From a bacterium (GTDB lineage Bacteria; SZUA-182; DTGQ01): a DNA stretch of 64,000 nucleotides. A program made the translations under genes and the position numbers. The DNA lies in NCBI GenBank assembly GCA_040755755.1, contig JBFLZW010000049.1, positions 62,001 through 126,000 on the forward strand, written 5' to 3'. The notes beneath the pieces were generated by a model. It worked only from the letters and a program-made list of their open reading frames with translations, did no database searches and was not told where the DNA came from. Positions 319 through 15,001 of the stretch are shown here, in pieces; positions within the stretch are counted from its first letter, which is position 1; each line of letters opens with the position of its first letter.

Positions 319-1389
319 TCAGCGAGGCTTATCGATTTCGAGAATGTCCGGTTTTCTCGCTAACACGGTCAGAAAGGCTTCCACTACTTCAGGATCAAAC
401 TGTGTTCCGCAGCAGCGCTGTAATTCCGAGATAGCATACTCCAGGGTCTGAACCGGTCTGTAGGGCCGGTTGGAAAGCATGGCATCGAGCGAATCCGCTA
501 CTGCCAGAATCCGTGAGGCCCGGGGGATTTTATTTCCTTTCAGTCCATCCGGATATCCTTTCCCGTCCCAGCGCTCATGATGGTGCTCGATAATTGCCAT
601 CTCAGGCTGCAGGAGGCGAAGGTGCTTGAGCACCTTGGTACCCAGGACCGGGTGTTGTTTTATTTCGGCGAATTCCTCATCGGTGAGGCGGCCTGGTTTG
701 TTGAGGATGGCATCGACTATTCCTATTTTTCCGATGTCGTGGATCAGGCCCGACTGTTTCACCTGATCGACTTCCTCGCGGGAGAGGCCCATTTGTTCGG
801 CGATTTCAACCGCATACTTCGTTACCTTCTGGGAATGCCGGTAGGTGTAGGGATTCTTCAATTCGATCAATTCACATAAGGCCTGAATCATGTTGATGTA
901 TTCCCTTTTGAAGAATTCCTCTTCCAGGGAAATCTGCATTTCCCGCGTGCGGTCTTCGTTCCCGCTTTTTTCCCGCTCTGCAAGGATTTTTTCAAGCCGC
1001 TCGTATAATTGGCAGATATTATATGGCTTGGCAATAAAATCATTAGCACCTAACCGGTAGGTTTCCACATTCCGTTCATAGGTACCTACGCCGGTAATGA
1101 TGACTACCGGCAGATTCCTGTTCTGCTCCCGGATTTCCTGAAGTGTTTTAATACCATCAATCCCTCCCGGCATGTTGATGTCCAGCAGCACAATATCCGG
1201 ATGACATTCCGGTATTAATTTGAGACATTCCTCTCCACTCGAGGCCAGAAGTACATCGTATTGAGTTTTCAGAATACCACTGAGTACTTCCCGATCCTCC
1301 TCACGATCATCGACGATGAGCATAAGCGGGGCGCTCCGACTCTCCCTCTTCACCCTGGTATCTCCTTGTATGGGATTGGTAATGTTCAT
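319..1389 (-). CDS. Response regulator with HD-GYP domain (c-di-GMP phosphodiesterase)
   Basis: This 356-residue protein has a receiver domain at about 22-140 (acidic pair VDD near 27, phosphoacceptor Asp70 in LLDINMP, conserved Lys in AKPY). A HD-GYP domain follows at about 165-340. The metal-binding HDIGK, the HHHERWDG stretch and GYPDGL are all intact, so hydrolysis of cyclic di-GMP is expected. The start ATG overlaps the stop of the upstream sensor kinase (ATGA, 1386-1389), showing co-transcription and pointing to that kinase as the phosphodonor. The likely role is phosphorylation-controlled lowering of c-di-GMP. The partner kinase ends in a PilZ domain, so the pair could form a feedback loop (inference). 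Confidence 0.93.
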   Translation of the reverse strand: MNITNPIQGDTRVKRESRSAPLMLIVDDREEDREVLSGILKTQYDVLLASSGEECLKLIPECHPDIVLLDINMPGGIDGIKTLQEIREQNRNLPVVIITGVGTYERNVETYRLGANDFIAKPYNICQLYERLEKILAEREKSGNEDRTREMQISLEEEFFKREYINMIQALCELIELKNPYTYRHSQKVTKYAVEIAEQMGLSREEVDQVKQSGLIHDIGKIGIVDAILNKPGRLTDEEFAEIKQHPVLGTKVLKHLRLLQPEMAIIEHHHERWDGKGYPDGLKGNKIPRASRILAVADSLDAMLSNRPYRPVQTLEYAISELQRCCGTQFDPEVVEAFLTVLARKPDILEIDKPR

Positions 1390-2966
1390 TGCTGCTCCTC
1401 AGACTGCCGGACGGCTGAAAAAGCCGGTTCCGTTCTTTCACCACAATGGTGTGCGGGCAAGAAACGGTCCACATCTCTTGCCGATTCCATCCATTTTTTA
1501 ATATATTCCTGATTCTCTCTACCAATATCGATAAATTCCAGACCCACATCATACGGCAGGCTGTGGCGGCCATAGATTTCCTGAGTCCAGGTTACCTTTC
1601 CCAAAACCGGAATCGGAGGGGAATCATCCGGCAATTTCACAAACAGTTTCATGAATTGATCTGGCGAAATATATTTTTGACAGGACAAGCGAAGGCCGCT
1701 GGCGCTGATATCCCTGGCTATCAGCATCTCGGTTTGGGGTATGCGGTAAACTTCAACCGATGCCGCCAGTTGCCGGCGCGATTCTCTTCTCTCCAGCGGC
1801 AGCCGCACTATAAAGGATGCCCCCTTTTCACGCCCGGCAACAACCTCCACACTCCCGCCATTCAGGGCAATGAAGTGCTCGACAATCGACAATCCCAGCC
1901 CCAGTCCCCTCTTATTTCCGGAAGTCATAAAAGGGGTGAATATGGTATCCCTGATTTTCTCGGAGATGCCCTTGCCGGTGTCGCGCACGGAAATTTTCAC
2001 TGACTGGTATTCCTTTTCCGTGACAAGAGACAATTCCTTCTTCTCTTCCCCTTCCATAGCCTCGATGGCATTCTGGATAAAATTTACAAACACCCTGGTC
2101 AGTTGTTCAGGCTCACCCGCGACGAGTATCTCCTCAGGATGATAATGGCGCCGCACATCGATCGCCTTTTCCCGAAGAGGCACCGAGCAGATCTCAAGGA
2201 CCTGGTCCAGAAGCTGATGAAGCGGGACAGAGCCGGTCTTCGACCTGACAGGACGAACATATACCAGCAGGTCTTTAATAATGGCTATCGCCCGGCTGAT
2301 CTCTTTCTGGGCAATGGGGAAGAACCTGTCTGCCACGTCCGCTCTTACTGCCTCCCTCCACCGGGAGTCCTGGTCCAGGAGCTGGAAAAATACATTGATG
2401 TTATTCAATGGGCTGTTTAAATCGTGGGCAACCTGGAGTGCCATTTTCCCCCAATTCGCGTAGATACGCTCTTCTATTATCCGGGTATAAATCCTGATCT
2501 TATCAATGGCAAAGGCTGCCTGACCGGCTATTTCCTTCAGGGCTTTTAACTCTCCCCGTGAGTAATGCGTTCCATCCGGTTTTTGGCCCACACTCAACAG
2601 GCCGCTGATATCGCCATCGTCAGCCCTTAAGGCCAGGCAGAGCCGGGCACCGAGATTTTCCAATTCCCGAAGCTCTTTCCCCTTGGCCGTACGGCATTTC
2701 GAAGCGGGCAAATCCCTCTGTGTCAGGAAATTTTTGCCGGTGGACAGAAACCACTGGACAATTGCCCCATCGATATCCGGCATGCGATCTTCCGCAATAT
2801 CCAGATTTCTCTGGGCCTGGAGTACAAATTTTTTGCTCTTCGGCTCTTTCAGCACAAGCGATACAGGACACGAAAGAAGCTGATGAACCGCTTCGATGAG
2901 GAAGTCAGCCATGTTCCGGATGTCCATGTGCTGGTGAATGCCCTTGACGATGTCTGCTGTCTTCAC
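1386..2966 (-). CDS. GAF-type sensor histidine kinase with C-terminal PilZ domain
   Basis: Cytoplasmic sensor kinase. A GAF-like region is followed by a dimerisation/phosphoacceptor domain (AHDLNSPLNNI, His about residue 181), an HK ATPase domain (QNAIEA, DTGKGI, GLGLGLSIVEHF) and a C-terminal PilZ domain of about 105 residues. The PilZ motifs are RRESRR and DISASGLRL (the DxSxxG motif), so c-di-GMP binding is plausible. PilZ at the end of a kinase is unusual. The start is uncertain. The frame is open up to an ATG at 3131, but that extension translates a dispersed GC-rich repeat (2997-3038) and is unlikely to be coding. I chose GTG 2966; ATG 2927 is another option. The stop overlaps the HD-GYP regulator start by 4 nt. 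Confidence 0.85.
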   Translation of the reverse strand: MKTADIVKGIHQHMDIRNMADFLIEAVHQLLSCPVSLVLKEPKSKKFVLQAQRNLDIAEDRMPDIDGAIVQWFLSTGKNFLTQRDLPASKCRTAKGKELRELENLGARLCLALRADDGDISGLLSVGQKPDGTHYSRGELKALKEIAGQAAFAIDKIRIYTRIIEERIYANWGKMALQVAHDLNSPLNNINVFFQLLDQDSRWREAVRADVADRFFPIAQKEISRAIAIIKDLLVYVRPVRSKTGSVPLHQLLDQVLEICSVPLREKAIDVRRHYHPEEILVAGEPEQLTRVFVNFIQNAIEAMEGEEKKELSLVTEKEYQSVKISVRDTGKGISEKIRDTIFTPFMTSGNKRGLGLGLSIVEHFIALNGGSVEVVAGREKGASFIVRLPLERRESRRQLAASVEVYRIPQTEMLIARDISASGLRLSCQKYISPDQFMKLFVKLPDDSPPIPVLGKVTWTQEIYGRHSLPYDVGLEFIDIGRENQEYIKKWMESARDVDRFLPAHHCGERTEPAFSAVRQSEEQQ

Positions 2967-2996
2967 GTCAGCTACCTTTACTCCACTCCTCCCCCT

Positions 2997-3038
2997 TGAG
3001 GCAGGGAGCCCCTGTGGCAGGGGAGGCTGGGTGGGGGT
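2997..3038. repeat. Dispersed GC-rich hairpin repeat
   Basis: The segment contains GGGAGCCCCTGTGGCAGGGG. It resembles sequences at 15030-15057, 36040-36062 and 54265-54290, where AGCCCC, CTGTGGCAGG or GGGCTCCC occur. It lies just upstream of the likely start of the PilZ kinase and would be translated only if the far upstream ATG were used. It is probably an intergenic mobile repeat rather than coding. Confidence 0.6.
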
Positions 3039-3412
3039 GATGGTTATTATCACCCCTCCTTTCGAGAAAAAGAAAATGAGGAACGTCTGTCCATGAACGA
3101 TTGCACTGATCGTCATAGTTATCGGCCACACTGGTCAAAAACTTGTTGGAAAGATTTGCAGGGAGCATGACAGATATCGGAGACGCAGGGGACATGAATC
3201 ACTCAAGGTGCCAAATTTCCGGGCAGTTACGGAAAATAGCGTAAAAAAATACAGAAGTTGCCTGCATAATGCGCCGAAAAGATTTTCAACAATGCTTATA
3301 CCCCTGTATGATGAGGTATGTCTTTCGGATTTCATAGGAAAAAGAATGCAGGCTGTTTTATAAAACCAGTTACCGGCAATTACCGTTACCTTTGCAAGGA
3401 GAGACAAAAATT

Positions 3413-4588
3413 TTGGCGGATCGGAGAGAAAATGAGCTGAATTACCTGGAATATCCTATCCTGCTGGTCGATGACGATCATATGGTATTGGAGTCCCTGC
3501 AGATATATCTTGAGGACAATTTCTCGTTAGATACTGCTGATGATCCGGAAAAGGCTCTTGAGATGATGCAATCCAAAGAGTATGCAGTGATCATCTCCGA
3601 TCAGCGGATGCCTAAACTGGAAGGTTGTTCTCTGTTAGCCAAAGCACGAGAGATATCTCCACGCAGTATCAGAATACTGATTACCGGATATACGGATCTT
3701 GAGGCTGCAATTGAGGCTATCAACAAGGGCGAAATATACCGCTTCATTCCCAAACAGGTGTCGAGTGAAGATAAGGAAATATTAATCAAACAGGCTGTCG
3801 AGCTGTACCATATCCGGGAAGAACGGGACCGGCTGCAGAAAGAAAATGAGCAGATGCTCAAAAAGCTTGCTGCCCAGCAAAAGCTGTCCGCTATCGGCCA
3901 TTTCGGCCTCAGGCTCAATGAGTGGTTATCGTCGCTCATAGGAGGTTTAACCAGACAACTGGGGGAAAAAAATCTCGATAAAAACCTGACCCTCCAGCTC
4001 AGCAGGCTCAAATCTCTCATGCAGAGGATTGACGAGGTATACCGGCTTACCGATTTTGATATTCCCAGGCTCCAGACGCAAATGGAATTCGATGATCTTA
4101 ATCAGGTGGTTCTTCTCTCGATAGATTATACCAGAGCTTTTATCAAAAGAGGGCTTCGCCCGGATTGGCAAGGGATCAAAATCAATACTACCCTGGATGC
4201 CACACTTCCCAGACTCTATATGGCCAAGGGAGCCGTACAGATCGCCATTGAGGAACTGCTGATCAATGCCAAGGAGGCTATCGAGGAAAACCGTCTGGAT
4301 AAGAGCAATTTCACTGAAGAAGGGATTATTGAGCTTAAGAGCTGGCATGAGACCCGTCAGGGAGAAAATCGCGTCTACCTGACAGTCACCGACAATGGCT
4401 GCGGGATAGACCCGGAAAACCTGCAGGATATTTTCAAACCCCTTATGAGCATCAGTAAGTATCCGGTTGACCGTCCCGGGATCGGGCTCAACATCGTCGA
4501 GCAGGTAATGGCTTTCCATAACGGGCTGGTCCATGCAGAAAGTACACCGGGTCAGGGATCAAAATTTACCCTTGAATTCAGTGGGTGA
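3413..4588 (+). CDS. Receiver-HATPase protein with H-box lacking histidine
   Basis: About 391 residues. A receiver domain comes first (LLVDDD; phosphoacceptor Asp63 in IISDQRMP; ITGYTD; Lys in FIPKQ), then a coiled-coil linker and a kinase-like ATPase domain (EELLINAKEAIEE, TDNGCGID, RPGIGLNIVEQ). Where kinases carry the phosphoacceptor HE pair after a conserved AxG, this protein reads LRLNEWLSSL, so Glu170 occupies the His position and the following Pro is absent. Autophosphorylation in cis therefore looks impossible; it may be a receptor, a scaffold or an ATP-dependent output. TTG 3413 is preferred because AGGAGA lies 10 nt upstream; an upstream in-frame TTG at 3392 includes that ribosome site. 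It is divergent from the PilZ kinase operon. Confidence 0.85.
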   Translation: MADRRENELNYLEYPILLVDDDHMVLESLQIYLEDNFSLDTADDPEKALEMMQSKEYAVIISDQRMPKLEGCSLLAKAREISPRSIRILITGYTDLEAAIEAINKGEIYRFIPKQVSSEDKEILIKQAVELYHIREERDRLQKENEQMLKKLAAQQKLSAIGHFGLRLNEWLSSLIGGLTRQLGEKNLDKNLTLQLSRLKSLMQRIDEVYRLTDFDIPRLQTQMEFDDLNQVVLLSIDYTRAFIKRGLRPDWQGIKINTTLDATLPRLYMAKGAVQIAIEELLINAKEAIEENRLDKSNFTEEGIIELKSWHETRQGENRVYLTVTDNGCGIDPENLQDIFKPLMSISKYPVDRPGIGLNIVEQVMAFHNGLVHAESTPGQGSKFTLEFSG

Positions 4589-5063
4589 TCTTCAAAAGAT
4601 TCAAGATGCTATGCCCTTTAATCGATAGCTGTCTATCTAAATCGATCGTTTACTTCTCTTGTTTCCAAAGCAATTCCATATCATATCTATGCAGTACTAC
4701 ACACTTAACTCCAGACTGATTTTTATACACAGATGACCTATTATTTTACATTTTAACCCCCGTCATACACGGAGATTCCATTGAAATTCCAATTTGAATT
4801 GCGTACATTGAATTGATAGACTTTTACGAATTCGCCTCCATGAGAAATGAAGAATATATAGTTAGCTTTGGCCTTATTTTTGCATGTTCTTCCAATAATG
4901 GTTAAGAGAGAGGCTAATAATGCTTAATCCTATGGACCCTGGAAAATCGATAAGCGCCTGTTAATAGTAAATCTAAACGAATGCAATACATTCACATTAC
5001 TGTGAAGGGTTCTATACAACAATGTGTGAAACAAAAGTAATAAACAGAGAGAAGGGAATTTCT
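4589..5063. other. A+T-rich intergenic region before the PilZ-ACP operon
   Basis: About 475 bases without a convincing gene or terminator. The sequence turns A+T-rich here and marks the left edge of the A+T-rich island. A promoter for the five-gene operon should lie in this stretch, but no clear -35/-10 pair stands out. Confidence 0.5.
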
Positions 5064-5744
5064 ATGCAGGATAATATGTCTCTTCAAGGGGTAGAGTCAT
5101 CAGAAAGACGCCGTTATCAAAGATTAGTGAGGAAACTTCCTGTCTATTTCAATATATATGAAGATAAGCGGAATAATAAATCTCATACGAGGTTTAGTGC
5201 GCAAACCCAGGACATCGGATTAGGGGGGGTTGCCTTTGATACTATTATTGAAGATATAACCTTGGCCAAAGAGTTAACCGAGAAAAGAACAGGATTAAAT
5301 CTTAATATCCATCTCATTGAAAAAAATAGTGAAATTGCTTCCAAGGCAAACATTGCCTGGATTTTTAACCTCAAGGGATTGCCTATCAAGACCAAATATG
5401 TACTAGGCTTGAATTTTGTTGATATGGGTAAGGCTGAAAGGGATATTCTTTCCACTTATCTCAACGAGATGATTTCATTTCAACGTGAAGAGTCAGCCAA
5501 GAATCGGCAAAGGATTAAAAAGACCTTGGCTCAAATAGCAAGAGTAAATGAAAATTCGTTTTCAGAAGATACACTTATTCGTGAAGAACTTGGAGTTGAT
5601 TCTCTCATGGCCATGGAGACCCTTGCCGTTATAGAAACGATATATGGAATAGAGATTGATGAAAGCAGGGCTTTTGATGTAGTAACGGTAGCCGATATGA
5701 TGGATCTCATTGAGGAGTATTTACATAAGAATAGCACATATTAG
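5064..5744 (+). CDS. PilZ domain-acyl carrier protein fusion
   Basis: The N-terminal half (about residues 12-135) is a PilZ domain: RRRYQR matches the arginine-rich c-di-GMP motif and TQDIGLGGVAF fits the D-x-(S/G)-x-x-G motif. The C-terminal 75 residues are an acyl carrier protein: IREELGVDSLMAMET has the DSL phosphopantetheine site (Ser180, or Ser194 from the earlier ATG), followed by the helix IYGIEID and TVADMMDLIEEYL. The fusion would let c-di-GMP control an acyl carrier in the cytoplasm (inference). It is the first of five genes packed within 0-6 nt of each other. ATG 5064 has GAGAAGGGA 5-13 nt upstream; ATG 5022 is an alternative. No phosphopantetheinyl transferase is in the window. 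Confidence 0.9.
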   Translation: MQDNMSLQGVESSERRRYQRLVRKLPVYFNIYEDKRNNKSHTRFSAQTQDIGLGGVAFDTIIEDITLAKELTEKRTGLNLNIHLIEKNSEIASKANIAWIFNLKGLPIKTKYVLGLNFVDMGKAERDILSTYLNEMISFQREESAKNRQRIKKTLAQIARVNENSFSEDTLIREELGVDSLMAMETLAVIETIYGIEIDESRAFDVVTVADMMDLIEEYLHKNSTY

Positions 5745-5750
5745 ATTATT

Positions 5751-6857
5751 ATGGAAAGAAAGATATTTATCACCGGTGGTACTGGGTTTTTAGGATGGTA
5801 TCTGGTCAAGAGTCTTTTAAAGGATAGAGATGTAAGCCTTGTCTTATTAAGCAGATCACAAGAAGGTCGCTCTGCTCAGTCCCGAATGGAAAAGTTACTC
5901 AGAGATAACTATAATGAAGCAGAATATAATAAATTAAAAGATCGCATTGAAATTGTAGAAGGGAGTATCACCCAGCCAAACTTAGGTATGAGTAATGAAC
6001 AGTCACAACGGCTGGCAGAGGAAATAACTTCTATTTTCCATAGCGCAGCTCTTTGCGACTTTAATGTGCCATACGAAAAAATAGAAAAAGTAAATGTCAC
6101 CGGCACCCAAAATTTATTAAATTTCGCTTTAATGTGTCGGAGCAATAAATCGTTTGAAGCCGTCAACCATATAAGTACAATCGCTGTCTCCGGCACTTAT
6201 CAGGGGACATTTTTTGAAGACTCTTTAGATGTGGGGCAAAGTTTTAAGAATACTTATGAGCAAACCAAGTTTGAAGCGGAAAAATTAATCCACGTATATA
6301 GAGCTAAGGGGTTAAATATAAATATTTTCAGGCCCAGTATTATTGTTGGAGATTCTCAAACAGGATATGCGGTCAATTTTAGAGTCCTATACCAGCCTAT
6401 TCATATTCTTTCTTTAGGAATTTACAAACAAATTCCAGCAAAAGGAAGTATAAAATATAATATTGTACCAGTGGACTTTTTAGCTGATGCTATATGTCTC
6501 ATTGATAATAGAAGTCATCCTTATAACCAGACTTTTCATATGACAAATACCCATGAAGTAACGGGAGATTTTATTTTTCAAACAGCCAGTGAATATTTTA
6601 AGTATCCCGATCCAGAGAGAATACCACTGGATGCATTTGATATGAGCACATTGAGAGGCTTTCGGAAGCTGTTGTTATCACCTTATATCCCTTATCTTAA
6701 TCATGACAATATCCTCTACGACAACAAACGGGCCATGGATATTCTGCAAAAAAATTCTTTTCAATGGCCCAAGGTAGATAAAAAATTTTTACACACACTC
6801 TTTAAATTTTGCTTTGATATTAACTTCATAACCCCTCCAAATGGATTGATGACATGA
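5751..6857 (+). CDS. NAD(P)-dependent thioester-reductase-like SDR
   Basis: A 368-residue extended short-chain dehydrogenase of the NAD_binding_4 / thioester reductase type. It begins with the Rossmann motif FITGGTGFLG, carries HSAALCDFNVPYE and VNVTGTQNLL, a Ser/Thr region HISTIAVSG and the catalytic YEQTK (YxxxK), then FRPSIIVGD. Family members release acyl chains from carrier proteins or CoA as aldehydes or alcohols using NAD(P)H. It starts 6 nt after the PilZ-ACP gene, so the carrier-bound acyl thioester encoded next door is the natural substrate (inference). Its stop overlaps the next start by 4 nt. Codon use is A+T-rich like its neighbours. A sugar epimerase role is less likely given the operon. 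Confidence 0.85.
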   Translation: MERKIFITGGTGFLGWYLVKSLLKDRDVSLVLLSRSQEGRSAQSRMEKLLRDNYNEAEYNKLKDRIEIVEGSITQPNLGMSNEQSQRLAEEITSIFHSAALCDFNVPYEKIEKVNVTGTQNLLNFALMCRSNKSFEAVNHISTIAVSGTYQGTFFEDSLDVGQSFKNTYEQTKFEAEKLIHVYRAKGLNINIFRPSIIVGDSQTGYAVNFRVLYQPIHILSLGIYKQIPAKGSIKYNIVPVDFLADAICLIDNRSHPYNQTFHMTNTHEVTGDFIFQTASEYFKYPDPERIPLDAFDMSTLRGFRKLLLSPYIPYLNHDNILYDNKRAMDILQKNSFQWPKVDKKFLHTLFKFCFDINFITPPNGLMT

Positions 6858-8353
6858 ATCTATCCTCTTTGATAAAAAGGGTGGCGAATGCGTACCCTGA
6901 AAAGCTGGCTATCATTGAAGATGAAGAAAAAATTTCATATCAGCAGTTGTGGCAAGAGATAGAATCGTTGTCAAATGCCTTGAAATTAATAGGCATAAGA
7001 AAGAATACCAGAGTCGCTATTATTCTTCCTAATTGTAAAGAATTTATTTATAGTTTCCTCGCCCTTCTCAATATCACTGCCATCGCCGTGCCTTTGAAAC
7101 CCCAAATGACATGCTGGGAACTTAACGGAATTTTTAAAAATTGTACTCCTAAAGCCTTGATTCTCACTCCGAGCCTTCTCAATAAGATACTTGGTGAAAA
7201 ACCTTTCCTTTTAAAAAATAAGATAATAATTCTTAAGGAAGAAAAACATGAAATACGAATCATGGATAAGAATGGGTACTTGGAAAATGTAACGTTACAT
7301 ACTTTTTGCACTCTTCTTAAGATGGGAAAAGAACAAGGCACTCGAAAGAGGAGAATACAAACTCCTCCAAGACAGGTAGCCAGTATTAATTATACTTACC
7401 GTGGCTATGGTTATCCACTGGGTGCAATGCTAACTCATAATAATTATATCCATGGTGCATATAATTATATCAGACACAGGAAATCATCACCTGATGAAAC
7501 AGTTCTTTTAGTTTTACCTTGTAACCATATTCTCCCTTTAGTAGGGTGCATTTTAGTACCCTTGCTTGTTGGAGGTAAGATAGCTCTATTAGATAGCTAC
7601 AGCCCAAAGCATATCCTTCGGGCTATCTCATCGTTTAATGTAAACATCCTGGTCATGGTGCCAACATTATTCCATATATTAGTAAATTATTATAGAAACG
7701 AAAAGCACGATATATCTTCTTTAAAATATGGAATATCAGGCGGCAGTTTCATGCACTTTCAACTTAGTAAGCTCATAAAAGACAAAATGAATCTTGATAT
7801 TATACAAGGATATGGATTGACCGAATGCCAACCTGTAACTTGTAATTTTTTAACTAATAATAAACCAGATACATTGGGTTTCCCACTTCACAATGTCCAA
7901 ATAAAAATCATAGATGAGAAAGAAAATGATTGCGGAACTGATAGAATTGGAGAAATTCTGATAAAAACGTCACAAACTATGCTAGGGTATTATAGAAACA
8001 AGAGTGATACAAAAAAGGTTATTAAAAATGGCTGGTTTTATTCTGGAGATTATGGAAAATTAGATGAAGATGGTTATCTCCATTTTAAGGGGTTAAAGAA
8101 AGATATTGTAAAGGTAGGTGGTAACGTTATTGACCTTTTGGAAATTAAAAAATGCATATTATTTATTGATGGAATTAAGAATATCATTTTTGACATACAA
8201 GATGATGATTTATGGGGATCTAAGATAAGGGTTAATCTATGGGTTGATAGTAATTGTGTAAATTACTCATCTAATGACGTAAAAAAATTTCTCGGAGAAT
8301 ATTTAAGCTTATATAAAATTCCTAGCGAAATAATTATTTGGGAAAATAAATGA
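6854..8353 (+). CDS. Adenylate-forming (ANL) enzyme with degenerate ATP loop and no A10 lysine
   Basis: This 499-residue protein aligns along acyl-CoA synthetases/AMP ligases: QGYGLTECQPV (A5), GWFYSGDYGKLDEDGYLHF (A7) and KDIVKVGGNVIDLLEIK (A8) are clear. The phosphate-binding A3 motif, normally YTSGTTGxPKG, reads YTYRGYGYPLG, losing Ser, both Thr and Lys. The protein ends at LYKIPSEIIIWENK, before the A10 lysine needed for adenylation. It may be a non-catalytic acyl-binding partner, do only the thioester half-reaction, or belong to a subfamily with another loop. Start and stop both overlap neighbours by 4 nt, so translational coupling with the ACP and reductase genes is expected. The natural partner is the ACP encoded two genes upstream. 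Confidence 0.85.
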   Translation: MNLSSLIKRVANAYPEKLAIIEDEEKISYQQLWQEIESLSNALKLIGIRKNTRVAIILPNCKEFIYSFLALLNITAIAVPLKPQMTCWELNGIFKNCTPKALILTPSLLNKILGEKPFLLKNKIIILKEEKHEIRIMDKNGYLENVTLHTFCTLLKMGKEQGTRKRRIQTPPRQVASINYTYRGYGYPLGAMLTHNNYIHGAYNYIRHRKSSPDETVLLVLPCNHILPLVGCILVPLLVGGKIALLDSYSPKHILRAISSFNVNILVMVPTLFHILVNYYRNEKHDISSLKYGISGGSFMHFQLSKLIKDKMNLDIIQGYGLTECQPVTCNFLTNNKPDTLGFPLHNVQIKIIDEKENDCGTDRIGEILIKTSQTMLGYYRNKSDTKKVIKNGWFYSGDYGKLDEDGYLHFKGLKKDIVKVGGNVIDLLEIKKCILFIDGIKNIIFDIQDDDLWGSKIRVNLWVDSNCVNYSSNDVKKFLGEYLSLYKIPSEIIIWENK

Positions 8354-9738
8354 TAGATAATCAAAAATTAAGGAAAAACCTACCGAAATTACAATTGGCT
8401 CTAATTTCTCCAGCCTCAAATGGTTTAAAAATGAACTTGGACCACATATATCTGGTATCTCAAGAGAAGATTGCTGAGAAAATTCCATCGCAGTATTTAT
8501 TTTCTCCTTTTTCCCGCTGGTCTGGAATGGGTTTGGGATTGTTAATAATTAGTGCATTAACTCCAGATATTTTCCAAATAGATTTAATAGACGAAAATAT
8601 AAAGGATATTGACTTTAACAAAAAGTACGACTTAATAGCTATCTCTTTAATAACACAACAAGCACCTCGGGCATATATTATCGCGGATTCTTTTCGTGCA
8701 AAGGGAATACCTGTCATCCTAGGTGGAATTCATCCAACAATAATGAAAGATGAAGCAAAGGCACATGCTGATTCAATTATTATTGGAGAAGCAGAAGAAT
8801 TATGGACAACAGTAATAGAAGATTTTTTAAATAAAGACCTCAAAAGTATTTATTATTCTAACGATTCCGTCGATTTATCAAAGTCACCTATACCCAGATA
8901 CGACCTACTTGATTTCTCAAAGTATAAGATCGCTTGGATACAAACGACACGCGGATGTCCACATGGTTGTGAGTTTTGTGCAGCATCAAATATATTCGGA
9001 AAAAGGTATAGGCATAAATCTATTCAACAAGTAATTAACGAAGTTCAATATATAAAGAGGCTTACTAATATTCAGATTGGATTTGCAGACGATAATATGT
9101 TTGTTAATAGAGAGTTTTCATATACATTGTTAAAAGAACTAAAAAAGTTAAATATTAACTGGATTACTCAAACAGATATATCCGTTGGAGAAGATGACGA
9201 GTTATTGGAATTGTTAAGAAAAAGTGGATGTAATTCACTATTTATTGGATTTGAAAGCCTATCTAAAAGAAATCTGACTTCTGATGATCGAGAGAATTGG
9301 AAGTTAAAATATATTGATAATTATGCAACACTTATAAAAAATATTCAGTCTTATGGGATAGGTGTTTTGGGTGCTTTTATATTGGGCTTTGATGAAGATG
9401 AAGAATCTACTTTTAATGAGTTAGCTGAATTTATCATTAGTAATAACTTATATGCCTCTCAATTGACTATTTTAACTCCCCTTCCTGGTACCAGATTAAG
9501 AGAAAGACTTTTAAGAGAAAATAGAGTAATATCTAGTGATTGGAATCGTTATACTTTCCTTGATGTTAACTTTATCCCAAAACGCATGTCACCTCAAAGG
9601 TTACAAGAAGGACTATATGAAGTTTTCCAAAAGGTATACGATAGAGAAGTTAGGATAAAAGTTGCCCAGCATTTTAAAAAAATATATCATGATTTAAGGC
9701 ATGATCCCGGAGAGAAAGTGCAAAAGTCTAGGAAGTGA
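8350..9738 (+). CDS. B12-binding-type radical SAM enzyme
   Basis: The protein has 462 residues. The N-terminal part resembles a cobalamin-binding Rossmann domain (YDLIAISLITQQAPRAY, VILGGIHPTI, IIIGEAEELW). The radical SAM core follows, with TTRGCPHGCEFCAAS giving the CxxxCxxC iron-sulphur motif at about residues 204-211, then FADDNMFVNREF and FIGFESL. Class B enzymes of this layout methylate or rearrange unactivated carbons in lipids, antibiotics and tetrapyrroles. Here it probably tailors the acyl product of the operon (inference). Its start overlaps the ANL gene and the kinase gene begins 5 nt after its stop. G+C is very low; one 60-base line (8761-8820) counts to 20 G/C. Whether it really binds B12 cannot be told from the sequence alone. 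Confidence 0.87.
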   Translation: MIDNQKLRKNLPKLQLALISPASNGLKMNLDHIYLVSQEKIAEKIPSQYLFSPFSRWSGMGLGLLIISALTPDIFQIDLIDENIKDIDFNKKYDLIAISLITQQAPRAYIIADSFRAKGIPVILGGIHPTIMKDEAKAHADSIIIGEAEELWTTVIEDFLNKDLKSIYYSNDSVDLSKSPIPRYDLLDFSKYKIAWIQTTRGCPHGCEFCAASNIFGKRYRHKSIQQVINEVQYIKRLTNIQIGFADDNMFVNREFSYTLLKELKKLNINWITQTDISVGEDDELLELLRKSGCNSLFIGFESLSKRNLTSDDRENWKLKYIDNYATLIKNIQSYGIGVLGAFILGFDEDEESTFNELAEFIISNNLYASQLTILTPLPGTRLRERLLRENRVISSDWNRYTFLDVNFIPKRMSPQRLQEGLYEVFQKVYDREVRIKVAQHFKKIYHDLRHDPGEKVQKSRK

Positions 9739-9743
9739 AATAA

Positions 9744-12700
9744 ATGCCTATATACTCAATCCTGCCGTTAATTTCAAGTTTAATGGTGTTATTTGTAGGC
9801 ATATTTATATTTTTCAATAACCGAAAGTCGATAATAAATATAAGTTTTGCTTTAGAATGTGGTAGTGTATTTTTATGGCTTTTTGGGTATTTTCTGATGT
9901 ATTCCACCCAAAATAAAATATTTGCTTTGTGGTGTGCTAAATTTATTTACACTGGGGTAGTTTTTATACCAACATTTTTTTACCATTTTACTGTTAGTTT
10001 CATTCATAGGGAAAAGACAAGAAGAAAGTTAATTAATTTTTGTTATATATACAGTTTTATTTTCCTATTTTTATTATATTGTACGAATTATTTAATAGTG
10101 GGATTACATAAATACTATTGGGGCTATCAAACCAATGTTGGTAAAATACATAATTTATACTTTTTAATATTTGTAATAATTTTTTCCCTAGGTTTTAAGG
10201 AATTAATCATAATAGCAAAAAGATTAAAAGGTGGTCAAGAATATAACAGGTTAAAGTACGTTATTACTGCGTATGTAGTAGCTTTACCTGCAATGACAGA
10301 TTTTATTCCAAACTATGGCATAGAATTCTACCCGGTCGGTTCGATATTTATCGTCAGTTGGATATCACTTATTGCCTATTCCATTGTCAAACATCAACTC
10401 ATGGACATTGAAGTAGCCATAACTCGTGCAACTACCTTTGCCTTTGTGTATGGCATTACCTTTGGCTTGCCATTTGTAGTATTCTCCCTCTTTAAGGAGC
10501 AATTCCACTCTTTATACATAAACTATCCCTGGTCAATACCTACAAGTTTAATGGGATATGCAGCACTGGCCACCATTACTCCATTTATTTATATCAGATT
10601 AGAACGAAAGGCTTATTATACCTTATTTGGTGACTATTCTGGCCAGTTGCAAGTACTTAGTGAGACAAGTAGAGAAATAATAGAAAAAGGATTTGAGAAT
10701 GCTATTGAATTAGCTAGACTTATACCAACTCATATTATGAAGTTCTATGAGAATACCATGCGGCAGAAGGTGAAGAATGTCTTTTATTTACTCAGAGAAG
10801 GAGGAAATTTCACTATCTTTTATGAAAATGTCAAAATCGAAAACTCCCTTGGAGCCATGAAAATAAATTATGAAAACCCTCTGATTAAGTGGTTTACAAA
10901 CGTTAGAAAGCAGTTGGTTCAAGAGAGGATTATTAAGATTGATGACAATCATTCACTAAAGAAAGAAGATATTGAATCCTGGCTGCAGGACATTTCGGGA
11001 AAAGAAAAATTCCAAGATCTGCGCAGAGAGTTACTAGCCCTTCTCGACGAAATAAACCGCCTCAATGGCGCTATTTTCTTCCCCAGCTACTACAAGGACG
11101 AATTAATGGGCATATTAGCCTTGGGTGAAAAGCAGAAGGGCATTTACCGGCCAGAGGAGTTGAAGGTCTTTCATACTATGGCGGAAAATGCCGCCATGGT
11201 TTTCAAAGGTTCCCAATTGACTGCCTCGGTCGTAGAGGCAGAAAATATCAAAAAGCTTGAAAAGGCTAAGTCGGAATTTTTTGCCAATGTCAGTCATGAG
11301 CTTCGCACGCCGCTTACCAACATTATCCTGCCTATTCAGAATGTACTGGAGAAGATCGGGCACAAGATAACTCCGGAGAACCGAGAGGAGAAGGAGTCCA
11401 TCCTGCGCAATGCTCACAAGCTGCTCAAGCGTATCAATGAGATATTGGACATATCGAAGCTCGAATCCGGCAAGATGCAACTGGAGGTGAGCCTCCGGGA
11501 TGTTAACAGTATTCTGGAGGATATTGTGGCTGTCTCTTCAATTGGGGCTAAGGAAAGGGGGATTAGTCTGCTCTTTGTGCCGGACAATACCATTCCCAAA
11601 ATTTACGTAGATACAGAAAAAATAGAGAAAGTATTTTCAAACCTGGTCAGTAATGCCTTAAAATTCACTCCTCCGCAGGGAAAAGTGGAAATCAGGACCA
11701 GGGAGGCAGCAGATTACCTGGAGGTGATTGTCAGCGACACGGGAATTGGCATTGCCCAGGCAGACATTCCCTGCATCTTTGAAAGATTCCGGCAACTTGA
11801 CGGCTCAAGTTCCCGGAAGTATGAGGGAACAGGCATTGGCCTTTCCCTGGCCAGGGAGCTGGTTGAATTGCATCATGGATCTATTGAGGTAGCCAGCGAG
11901 TTGAACAGGGGGACTACCTTCACGGTCCGATTACTCAAGGGGAACGATCATTTCCCAAAAGGTGTAATCCGGCAAGAGCTGGAAAAGCCCCATATAAGTG
12001 ATGGATTTGCGGAACGCAGAATTATTGGCGAACACCAGAAGGCTGACCGGAGAGAGGCTGACAGACGGAAAATGAGCTCAGTGGACAGGGTTTCTATTGA
12101 CCTGTTGCAGCTTCAATTCTCCGATATGCTGCCTGGCCGGTCTTTGCCTCGGGCTGCTCATGACGCAGCAGGTAAAGCTCATGGAAATGGCGGGCTTCAT
12201 GCGTCTGTCGGATCTGCTGAATCTGCCGGGAAAGAGACTATCCTGATTGTCGATGACAATAGAGATCTGGCCGCTAATATTGCCCACTGTTTTACCCCAG
12301 AGCACCAGGTATCCATAGCTTATGATGGAAAGCAGGCATTGGAAATGATTGCTAAAGAGCCTCCAGCCCTTGTCATTTCGGATGTCATGATGCCTGAAAT
12401 GGATGGCTACGAGTTGTGTGGGAAGATTAAGTCCAGCGAGCGGACGCAGCATATTCCGGTTATTCTCTTAACCGCCAAGGCGGCTGTTGAAGACAGGATA
12501 ACCGGCCTGAAACAGGGTGCCGATGAATATCTTGCCAAACCGTTTAATGCCAAGGAATTGATGGCTGTTGTTGACTCCCTGTTAACCAAAAAAGAGCTTC
12601 AGGCGCAATTAAACAAAACCAACCAGGAATTGAAAAAAGCCCTGCATGAGCTGAAAGAGACCGAGGCTGAGTTAGTACATACTGCAAAACTGGCGGCGGT

Positions 12701-13708: not shown

Positions 13709-15001
13709 ATGAAAAAACTCTTGACAACTCTGACCGCTGCTTTTTACCTTGGCACAGTTACTTTTTCTCTTTGTTGCATTGGAGTACGGCAAAGTTGTGC
13801 GAACGGGATTTATGTGGATGGCACGGGGCCGGTTTCCAATGGACGAGGAGGAACGAATATCGCCCATAGTGACAATGGAACCGTCATTCACGACAACCCA
13901 TCCGCTTTGGCTGCGCTGAAAGGGAAACGGCTCGAAGCGTGCTTTGATTTTTTAGTTCTCCCCATGAGCTATCGAGATCCGCAGAATGACGAGGATGGGA
14001 AAAACCGCCTTTTACTCCTGCCGTCATTCTCGTACAGTCAAAAAATGCCTCAGCGTCCCTTTGGAATAGGTTTCGGTGTTTACACCTCTGCCGGGTTCTC
14101 GACGGAGTATCGCTTGGTTCACCCTGCTTATGGAAAACAAAAGTATGCTTCCGATGCCTCGATGACGAAAATGCTCCTGGGTGTGGGCTGGCAGATGACG
14201 AACCAATGGTCCCTTGGCCTTGGGGCAGGACCTGCTTACAGCAGGGTGGCATTTGAAGAGCCGTACACGTTTCAGACCGGCATTTTCCGGGAACAATCTG
14301 TTCTGGTCGATATGAAAGGGGACGATTGGGCCCTGGCCTGGAATCTGGGAGTGCAGTGGCACATAGTGGACAGTACAACTTTAGGGTTAGCCTATGTCAA
14401 TCAGGACCGGTTTCATCTCCGGGGTGATGCGGATATACAGGGCTTGCCCCTCAGCGATCCCACCGCTCATTACCAGGCCGCGTATGATTTCAAGTGGCCC
14501 CAGACCCTTGGCCTGGGAATAACGCATCGGTTCAACACTATCCATAAAATTTCGACAGATGTCATGTGGATAGACTGGTCTTCGGCCTTCGATGAACTGA
14601 CCATAAAACTTACTGATGGTGATAACGCCGAACTGAATGCCGTAGCCGGAAATTCAGTCCAGGATGTGTTCCCGCTCCATTGGAAGGACAGCTATGCTTT
14701 CCGGCTGGGTTATGAATATCTGTGGACTCCGGTCGATACCTTGCGGCTTGGCTACGCCTACAACCTGAACCCCGTTCCGGATTCCACACTTACTCCAATG
14801 ATTCCCGGCATCATGACACACCTGGTGTCCTTCGGATATGGGCATACCTGGGATAAATGGGCCTTTAACGCAGCCTATATTTACTCGTTTGGCCCACGGC
14901 AGTCAGTAGGCAATAGTAAAATTATCGGCGACGATTACGACCAGAGCTCTACTCGGATCAGTGCTCATTTTCTCTCTGTTGGAGCTCAGTACCAATTTTG
15001 A
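13709..15001 (+). CDS. FadL/OMPP1-family outer-membrane transport protein
   Basis: A 430-residue beta-barrel. ATG 13709 starts MKKLLTTLTAAFYLGTVTFS, a signal peptide whose likely cleavage follows SCA. The mature N-terminus NGIYVDGTG, NGRGGTNIAHSDNG and HDNPSALAALKG match the FadL signature of a Gly-rich hatch and an NPxAL motif. Many alternating strands end in a C-terminal QYQF typical of barrels recognised by the BAM machine. Family members carry long-chain fatty acids or hydrophobic aromatics across the outer membrane. It follows the acyl-pathway operon on the same strand, so a role in uptake or exchange of a related lipid is possible but unproven. GGGGGG precedes the start. A hairpin lies after the stop. 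Confidence 0.88.
   Translation: MKKLLTTLTAAFYLGTVTFSLCCIGVRQSCANGIYVDGTGPVSNGRGGTNIAHSDNGTVIHDNPSALAALKGKRLEACFDFLVLPMSYRDPQNDEDGKNRLLLLPSFSYSQKMPQRPFGIGFGVYTSAGFSTEYRLVHPAYGKQKYASDASMTKMLLGVGWQMTNQWSLGLGAGPAYSRVAFEEPYTFQTGIFREQSVLVDMKGDDWALAWNLGVQWHIVDSTTLGLAYVNQDRFHLRGDADIQGLPLSDPTAHYQAAYDFKWPQTLGLGITHRFNTIHKISTDVMWIDWSSAFDELTIKLTDGDNAELNAVAGNSVQDVFPLHWKDSYAFRLGYEYLWTPVDTLRLGYAYNLNPVPDSTLTPMIPGIMTHLVSFGYGHTWDKWAFNAAYIYSFGPRQSVGNSKIIGDDYDQSSTRISAHFLSVGAQYQF

Follow-up and report, generated by a model that had tools for sequence, protein, structure and literature searches.

In the DSF/Rpf neighbourhood, an acyl-ACP enzyme, an ANL protein and a hybrid kinase lie together with a REC-HD-GYP regulator that acts on c-di-GMP (PMC4504480). 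A different assembly, the ladderane-type cluster, has been described without a receptor kinase, and a histidine kinase is not mentioned in that description (PMC2649909). With regard to perception, BtsS shows that a 7TM kinase of bacteria can act as receptor for a small molecule (PMC10653868). The locus considered here, in a 64,000-nucleotide stretch of bacterial DNA (the window), brings a carrier protein, a thioester reductase and a 7TM receptor kinase into a single operon (Table 1).

Operon layout and domain composition

The four proteins named in the initial annotation, a PilZ-ACP fusion, a thioester-reductase-like SDR, an ANL enzyme and a B12-type radical SAM enzyme (rSAM), are present where it placed them, as judged by Pfam matches and motifs. 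Their genes are tightly packed, with 6 nt between fusion and SDR and overlaps at the two later junctions (-4 and -4 nt). The operon had been taken to end at 9738, but a gene for a 7TM hybrid histidine kinase begins 5 nt beyond the rSAM gene, and one for a FadL/TodX porin comes after it. The grouping exceeds chance, as the same gene set is found again in other phyla. In the divergent pair, the GAF-histidine kinase-PilZ gene overlaps the HD-GYP gene, the product of which has intact HDIGK and HHERWDGKGYP motifs. Both genes have host GC and, like the REC-histidine kinase gene, are tied to the cassette by position only; the REC-HD-GYP protein is a putative member of the circuit.

Table 1. Features of the cassette and its flanks (window positions)
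Feature	Position	Strand	Basis
REC-HD-GYP response regulator, RpfG-like architecture, divergent neighbour	319..1389	-	PF00072, PF13487
GAF-histidine kinase-PilZ protein, divergent neighbour	1386..3131	-	PF02518, PF07238, PF13185
REC-histidine kinase, directly 5' of AT-rich island	3392..4588	+	PF00072, PF02518
AT-rich island	4550..11050		composition profile; per-gene GC and GC3
PilZ-acyl carrier protein fusion	5064..5744	+	Pfam PF07238 + PF00550
SDR thioester reductase (NAD_binding_4)	5751..6857	+	PF07993 E 7e-63
ANL-fold protein, replaced A3 motif (TYRGYGYPLG), without A10 lysine	6854..8353	+	PF00501 E 6e-69; motif comparison
B12-binding radical SAM enzyme, DUF4070 C-terminus	8350..9738	+	PF04055, PF02310, PF13282
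7TM hybrid histidine kinase, 1225 aa	9744..13421	+	PF16927, PF00512 x2, PF02518 x2, PF00072
7TM receptor module of hybrid kinase	9744..10433	+	43% identity to L151, L153 7TM modules
FadL/TodX outer-membrane porin	13709..15001 (ORF open from 13589)	+	PF03349 E 7e-46

The frame of the fusion is open from 5022; the start at 5064 is preferred, and the purine-rich AGAAGGGA lies directly 5' of this ATG. That one protein joins a PilZ domain to a complete ACP is borne out by matches above the Pfam cut-offs to both PF07238 (residues 28-148, E 1e-6, 29.5 bits vs 22.5) and PF00550 (residues 163-230, E 1e-10), and by the motifs RRRYQR, DIGLGG and LGVDSL, the last containing the phosphopantetheine serine (DSL). 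The assignment of the PilZ motifs to the c-di-GMP-binding type stands in part: RxxxR is kept, with E28, R30 and R34 invariant in alignment A5, whereas DIGLGG departs from (D/N)xSxxG, glycine replacing the serine. The structural model of the fusion, of low overall confidence (pLDDT 63), matches the PilZ folds of YcgR, Alg44 and MrkH, the matched YcgR and Alg44 structures being c-di-GMP-bound. Binding of c-di-GMP by the window domain is predicted to be likely.

The SDR belongs to PF07993 and carries the TGxTGFLG and YxxxK motifs of thioester reductases. Among solved structures it lies closest to reductase domains for carrier-bound thioesters, namely the R domains of MxaA, CAR, NRPS and a type I PKS, and the SDR is therefore expected to release the acyl group from its carrier as an aldehyde or alcohol. 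The ANL-like protein retains the PF00501 fold, as annotated, but an ordinary acid-activating role is weakened: TYRGYGYPLG stands where A3 would read TSGTTGxPKG, and the protein ends before the lysine of A10 (PRTxxGK), as do five relatives. TYRG.G.PLG replaces A3 in all six cassette members; the ANL proteins of L047 and L048, two loci outside this group, retain both motifs. Judging from these motifs, free-acid activation should not be assumed. The CxxxCxxC of the rSAM enzyme is present in TTRGCPHGCEFC.

The kinase runs 7TM-HisKA-HATPase-REC-HisKA-HATPase, its receptor module matching PF16927 at E 3e-11 (44.2 bits vs a cut-off of 28.6). The module is modelled with high confidence (pLDDT 95.7), and its best PDB matches in Foldseek are GPCRs (E about 1e-3, TM-score 0.4-0.65); the model also places a beta hairpin between helices 4 and 5, a feature common to many GPCRs. 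This likeness may be one of topology only. The literature searched gave no ligand for HisKA_7TM. The initial annotation had missed this kinase, and since a receptor kinase belongs to the operon, a signal is the likely product.

Composition separates these genes into two groups. An AT-rich island, in which GC is 0.26-0.38 compared with about 0.50 in both flanks, carries the fusion, SDR, ANL and rSAM genes together with the part of the kinase gene that encodes the 7TM half, and its boundary falls inside that gene just after the 7TM module; the C-terminal part of the kinase and FadL have host-like GC. The window FadL is 58% identical to the FadL of an rSAM-HK-FadL trio in G002, a family relative. 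The composition is consistent with horizontal transfer of this copy, and insertion of the cassette beside a resident FadL and kinase fits the AT-rich island, the host-like kinase C-terminus and porin, and the FadL match in a relative. Among 11 relatives, none has a close full-length counterpart of the C-terminal half of the kinase, and a domain swap is therefore read from composition only. An assembly joint within the kinase gene is an alternative account of the GC boundary; the open frame counts against it.

Recurrence of the cassette and its receptor

A search by rSAM returned mostly paralogues, and the SDR was thus taken as the query in a scan of GTDB genomes plus 334 Omnitrophota genomes, with neighbourhoods typed by profiles built for this analysis. 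The gene content, order, domain make-up and composition of the cassette, and its conservation across phyla, were read directly from the sequences. In Omnitrophota, L151 has the order FadL-ACP-ANL-SDR-rSAM-7TM kinase-RR-?-RR/HD-GYP, L155 the same order through RR-?-RR, where the contig ends, and L153 the order 7TM kinase-ACP-SDR-ANL-rSAM-7TM kinase-?-HD-GYP. Further loci are L069 (rSAM-SDR-7TM HK) and L075 (SDR-ANL-7TM HK-RR-HD-GYP). The window cassette proteins are all closest to those of L151/L153/L155, at about 40-57% identity (ACP 47-51%, SDR 43-47%, ANL 43-44%, rSAM 53-57%, 7TM 39-44%), and the SDRs group together in the tree (SH-aLRT 91). An SDR relative of 43% identity, in the order rSAM-SDR-7TM kinase, occurs in an unrelated small phylum. 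In a second variant, found in Omnitrophota and Nitrospirota, KS, FabG and FabZ, often with a CrtI-like flavoprotein and a nitroreductase, replace ANL and rSAM. A REC-HD-GYP regulator lies in the neighbourhood in the window, L084, L233-L235, L151 and L152, and L177, L203 and L216 each have a direct fusion of the 7TM module with HD-GYP. The early suggestion that the operon modifies acyl groups to yield a small lipid or signal is supported by this recurrence across phyla beside 7TM kinases and c-di-GMP phosphodiesterases.

Over loci with enough downstream sequence, mostly from Omnitrophota, a same-strand 7TM receptor lies within 8 kb downstream of 35 of the 36 SDRs that reach 300 bits and of 1 of the 15 that score lower (Fisher p 2e-10). 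The 300-bit split is partly hindsight, because six cassette members had served to train the profile behind these scores (6 of the 35 associated SDRs trained it, the remainder did not). All four high-scoring Nitrospirota loci (L084, L233-L235) read SDR-(CrtI)-7TM HK-HK-REC/HD-GYP, and the 7TM receptor is absent from all six lower-scoring SDR loci of that phylum. The KS-KS-SDR loci with low scores (most of L179-L221) were regarded as a different, receptor-free subfamily and put aside. In a mirror-tree test the SDR co-evolved no more closely with the 7TM module than with the kinase core (r 0.22 vs 0.24), a weak and non-specific signal that was consequently not used as evidence.

The partners thus recur together, as the initial annotation had proposed to check, but around stand-alone ACPs: those of the Omnitrophota cassettes all stand alone, and conservation of the fusion itself is not supported. 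No second PilZ-ACP protein was found among 60 relatives, then a spread of 386 genomes, where the other matches were to ACP only, nor among the plasmids searched, so that within the sequences searched the fusion is confined to this lineage, the class of which is thinly sampled (nine genomes, this one included). A literature search on PilZ-ACP fusions found no relevant paper. Some link of PilZ or c-di-GMP with the enzymes nevertheless survives in other loci: besides the three 7TM-HD-GYP fusions, a PilZ-methyltransferase fusion lies directly before the SDR-7TM kinase in L169 and upstream in L171. In L178 a lone PilZ protein lies farther from the cassette. The PilZ domains of these three loci keep both RxxxR and (D/N)xSxxG.

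A model of acyl signalling and its alternatives

Taken together, these data allow a model in which the window holds a horizontally acquired acyl-signal cassette, whose reduced acyl signal is made on the ACP, sensed by the 7TM kinase and wired to c-di-GMP; its probability is put at roughly one in two. This model proposes that an acyl chain would be carried on the ACP domain, where the B12-radical SAM enzyme may modify it and the ANL-like enzyme may handle it, before the thioester reductase would free the product as an aldehyde or alcohol. The product could then cross the outer membrane, possibly via the FadL porin, a role that is plausible because FadL takes up long-chain AHLs in rhizobia (PMC9938287), and the 7TM module of the kinase encoded alongside would sense it. 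Kinase output may reach c-di-GMP through REC-HD-GYP proteins, and the PilZ domain on the carrier could let c-di-GMP feed back on signal synthesis. Every chemical step, the identity of the ligand, the nature of the signal, c-di-GMP binding and the direction of gating are what we infer from the genes. The wider form of the model, an apparently undescribed signalling system shared across phyla in which a modified acyl chain leaves its dedicated carrier through the reductase as an aldehyde or alcohol, a GPCR-like 7TM receptor reads it, and c-di-GMP serves as both output and PilZ gate, is put forward tentatively and is considered rather unlikely in full.

The product could instead be a membrane lipid or hydrocarbon, since the KS/CrtI variants resemble ladderane-type lipid clusters. 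In such a specialised pathway, the main rival and itself rather unlikely, fatty aldehydes or alcohols from the reductase would go into an unusual lipid, and the 7TM kinase would sense membrane state or lipid level for homeostasis. KS, FabG, FabZ and CrtI-like partners occur in many loci, a plsX-fabH-fabD-fabF run ends in SDR-7TM HK at L160, L163, L173 and L177, comparable FAS/CrtI/radical-SAM clusters have been discussed in connection with ladderanes and with polyunsaturated hydrocarbons (PMC2649909), and Omnitrophota are reported to carry clusters of the ladderane type (PMC9902471). However, the cassettes of the window and L151-L155 are without KS, acyltransferase or head-group enzyme and have only one carrier, and the output side is repeatedly c-di-GMP turnover.

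An accessory locus of the surface-polysaccharide or exosortase type, in which the acyl group would decorate an exopolysaccharide under a PrsK-like kinase, is improbable. An rSAM-ACP-ANL set does adjoin Wzz-like and kinase genes in probable polysaccharide clusters of the same genome (L047) and of G001 (L048), with an ANL close to TIGR03098 (512 bits vs a cut-off of 592). The cassette ANL, however, scores only 167 bits on that model and is without the canonical motifs that L047 keeps, and there is no glycosyltransferase among the operon genes. The weak match of cassette kinases to PrsK (TIGR02916, cut-off 300) falls below that cut-off, at 88-162 bits for L151, L153, L069 and L084, and the model is not among the window kinase's best 25 matches. 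There is an equally small chance that a recently acquired cassette is non-functional as a unit here, the chimeric kinase and fused PilZ domain being accidents of insertion. The sharp GC change within the kinase gene, the missing full-length relative of its C-terminal part and the uniqueness of the fusion would fit such an origin, but all frames are open, the 4-nt overlaps are kept, and the SDR, rSAM, ACP and HD-GYP motifs examined are intact.

Relation to known systems

Should the acyl-signal model hold, it would add a second, unrelated chemistry to the few acyl signals tied to c-di-GMP, in phyla with little described cell-cell signalling, for which a literature search gave nothing matching; a search on thioester reductases plus HD-GYP kinases likewise found no paper. 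HisKA_7TM receptors would gain a candidate class of ligands, and the fusion would be a carrier protein under direct second-messenger control.

The SDR shares sequence family and NADPH-SDR motifs with the R domains of MxaA, NRPS and CAR, which act on carrier-bound thioesters, but it stands alone as a protein, its ACP being free-standing or fused to PilZ. An ACP with a B12-radical SAM enzyme recalls the ladderane-type clusters (PMC2649909), as do the Omnitrophota variants with their KS, FabZ and CrtI-like enzymes; the window operon, however, is without the FabB/F paralogues (KS) and CrtI-like enzyme present in its KS-type relatives. BtsS likewise has a 7TM sensor fused to a kinase, but is of the LytS type and binds pyruvate, in contrast to the HisKA_7TM kinase of the window (PMC10653868). 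In BcsA and Alg44, a PilZ fold with RxxxR is also attached to biosynthetic machinery, whereas here it sits on the acyl carrier itself. By analogy, the closest functional parallel would be DSF/Rpf (RpfF-RpfB-RpfC-RpfG), which also places an enzyme for an acyl-ACP-derived signal, an ANL protein, a hybrid kinase and a REC-HD-GYP regulator in one neighbourhood. Membership in that system was rejected, no RpfF-type crotonase being found among the operon proteins. Synthase and receptor are unrelated, and the window system is therefore not a member: its synthase is a thioester-reductase SDR and its receptor is 7TM (PF16927), whereas DSF/Rpf uses a crotonase and a 5TM receptor, and it has an ACP of its own, to which a PilZ domain is joined, as well as a B12-radical SAM enzyme.

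Altered motifs in ANL-fold proteins

Judging from sequence, the ANL-fold proteins of the window, of the Omnitrophota loci holding the closest cassette relatives (L151, L153 and L155) and of L075 and L204 may constitute a non-adenylating ANL subfamily: they conserve a substitute motif resembling (N/F)YTYRGxGxPLG, and the A10 lysine is absent from them.

Additional cassette proteins

In the Omnitrophota cassette, the two response regulators flank a conserved protein of 77-85 aa, with no Pfam match for the copy searched (L151). In several loci, a shorter second 7TM kinase (~550 aa) adjoins the SDR or ACP.

Coordinates of the features discussed
Feature	Location
ANL-fold protein	window 6854-8353
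77-85 aa protein	L151:4024-4263
77-85 aa protein	L152:3928-4185
77-85 aa protein	L155:13053-13286
Shorter 7TM kinase	L165:6490-8136
Shorter 7TM kinase	L153:9278-10960
Shorter 7TM kinase	L173:9360-11018
rSAM-kinase pair	G000:C49 ~23.2-27.3 kb (L060:5192-9281)
rSAM-kinase-FadL trio	L057:2342-8162
1348-aa protein	L074:1-4047

Cassette components elsewhere

The window's contig carries a second rSAM-histidine kinase pair upstream of the window, and in the relative G002 a FadL porin comes after such a pair, this trio occurring without ACP or SDR. In G003, from the same family as the source, a 1348-aa protein ending C-terminally in an ACP-thioester reductase precedes an oxidoreductase and then a FadL that shares 51% identity with the FadL of the window. 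Genes for rSAM, ACP and ANL proteins also adjoin Wzz-like and tyrosine-kinase-like genes, which are probably part of polysaccharide clusters, in the source genome (L047, G000:C83) and in G001 (L048, G001:C90); at both loci the ANL motifs are canonical.
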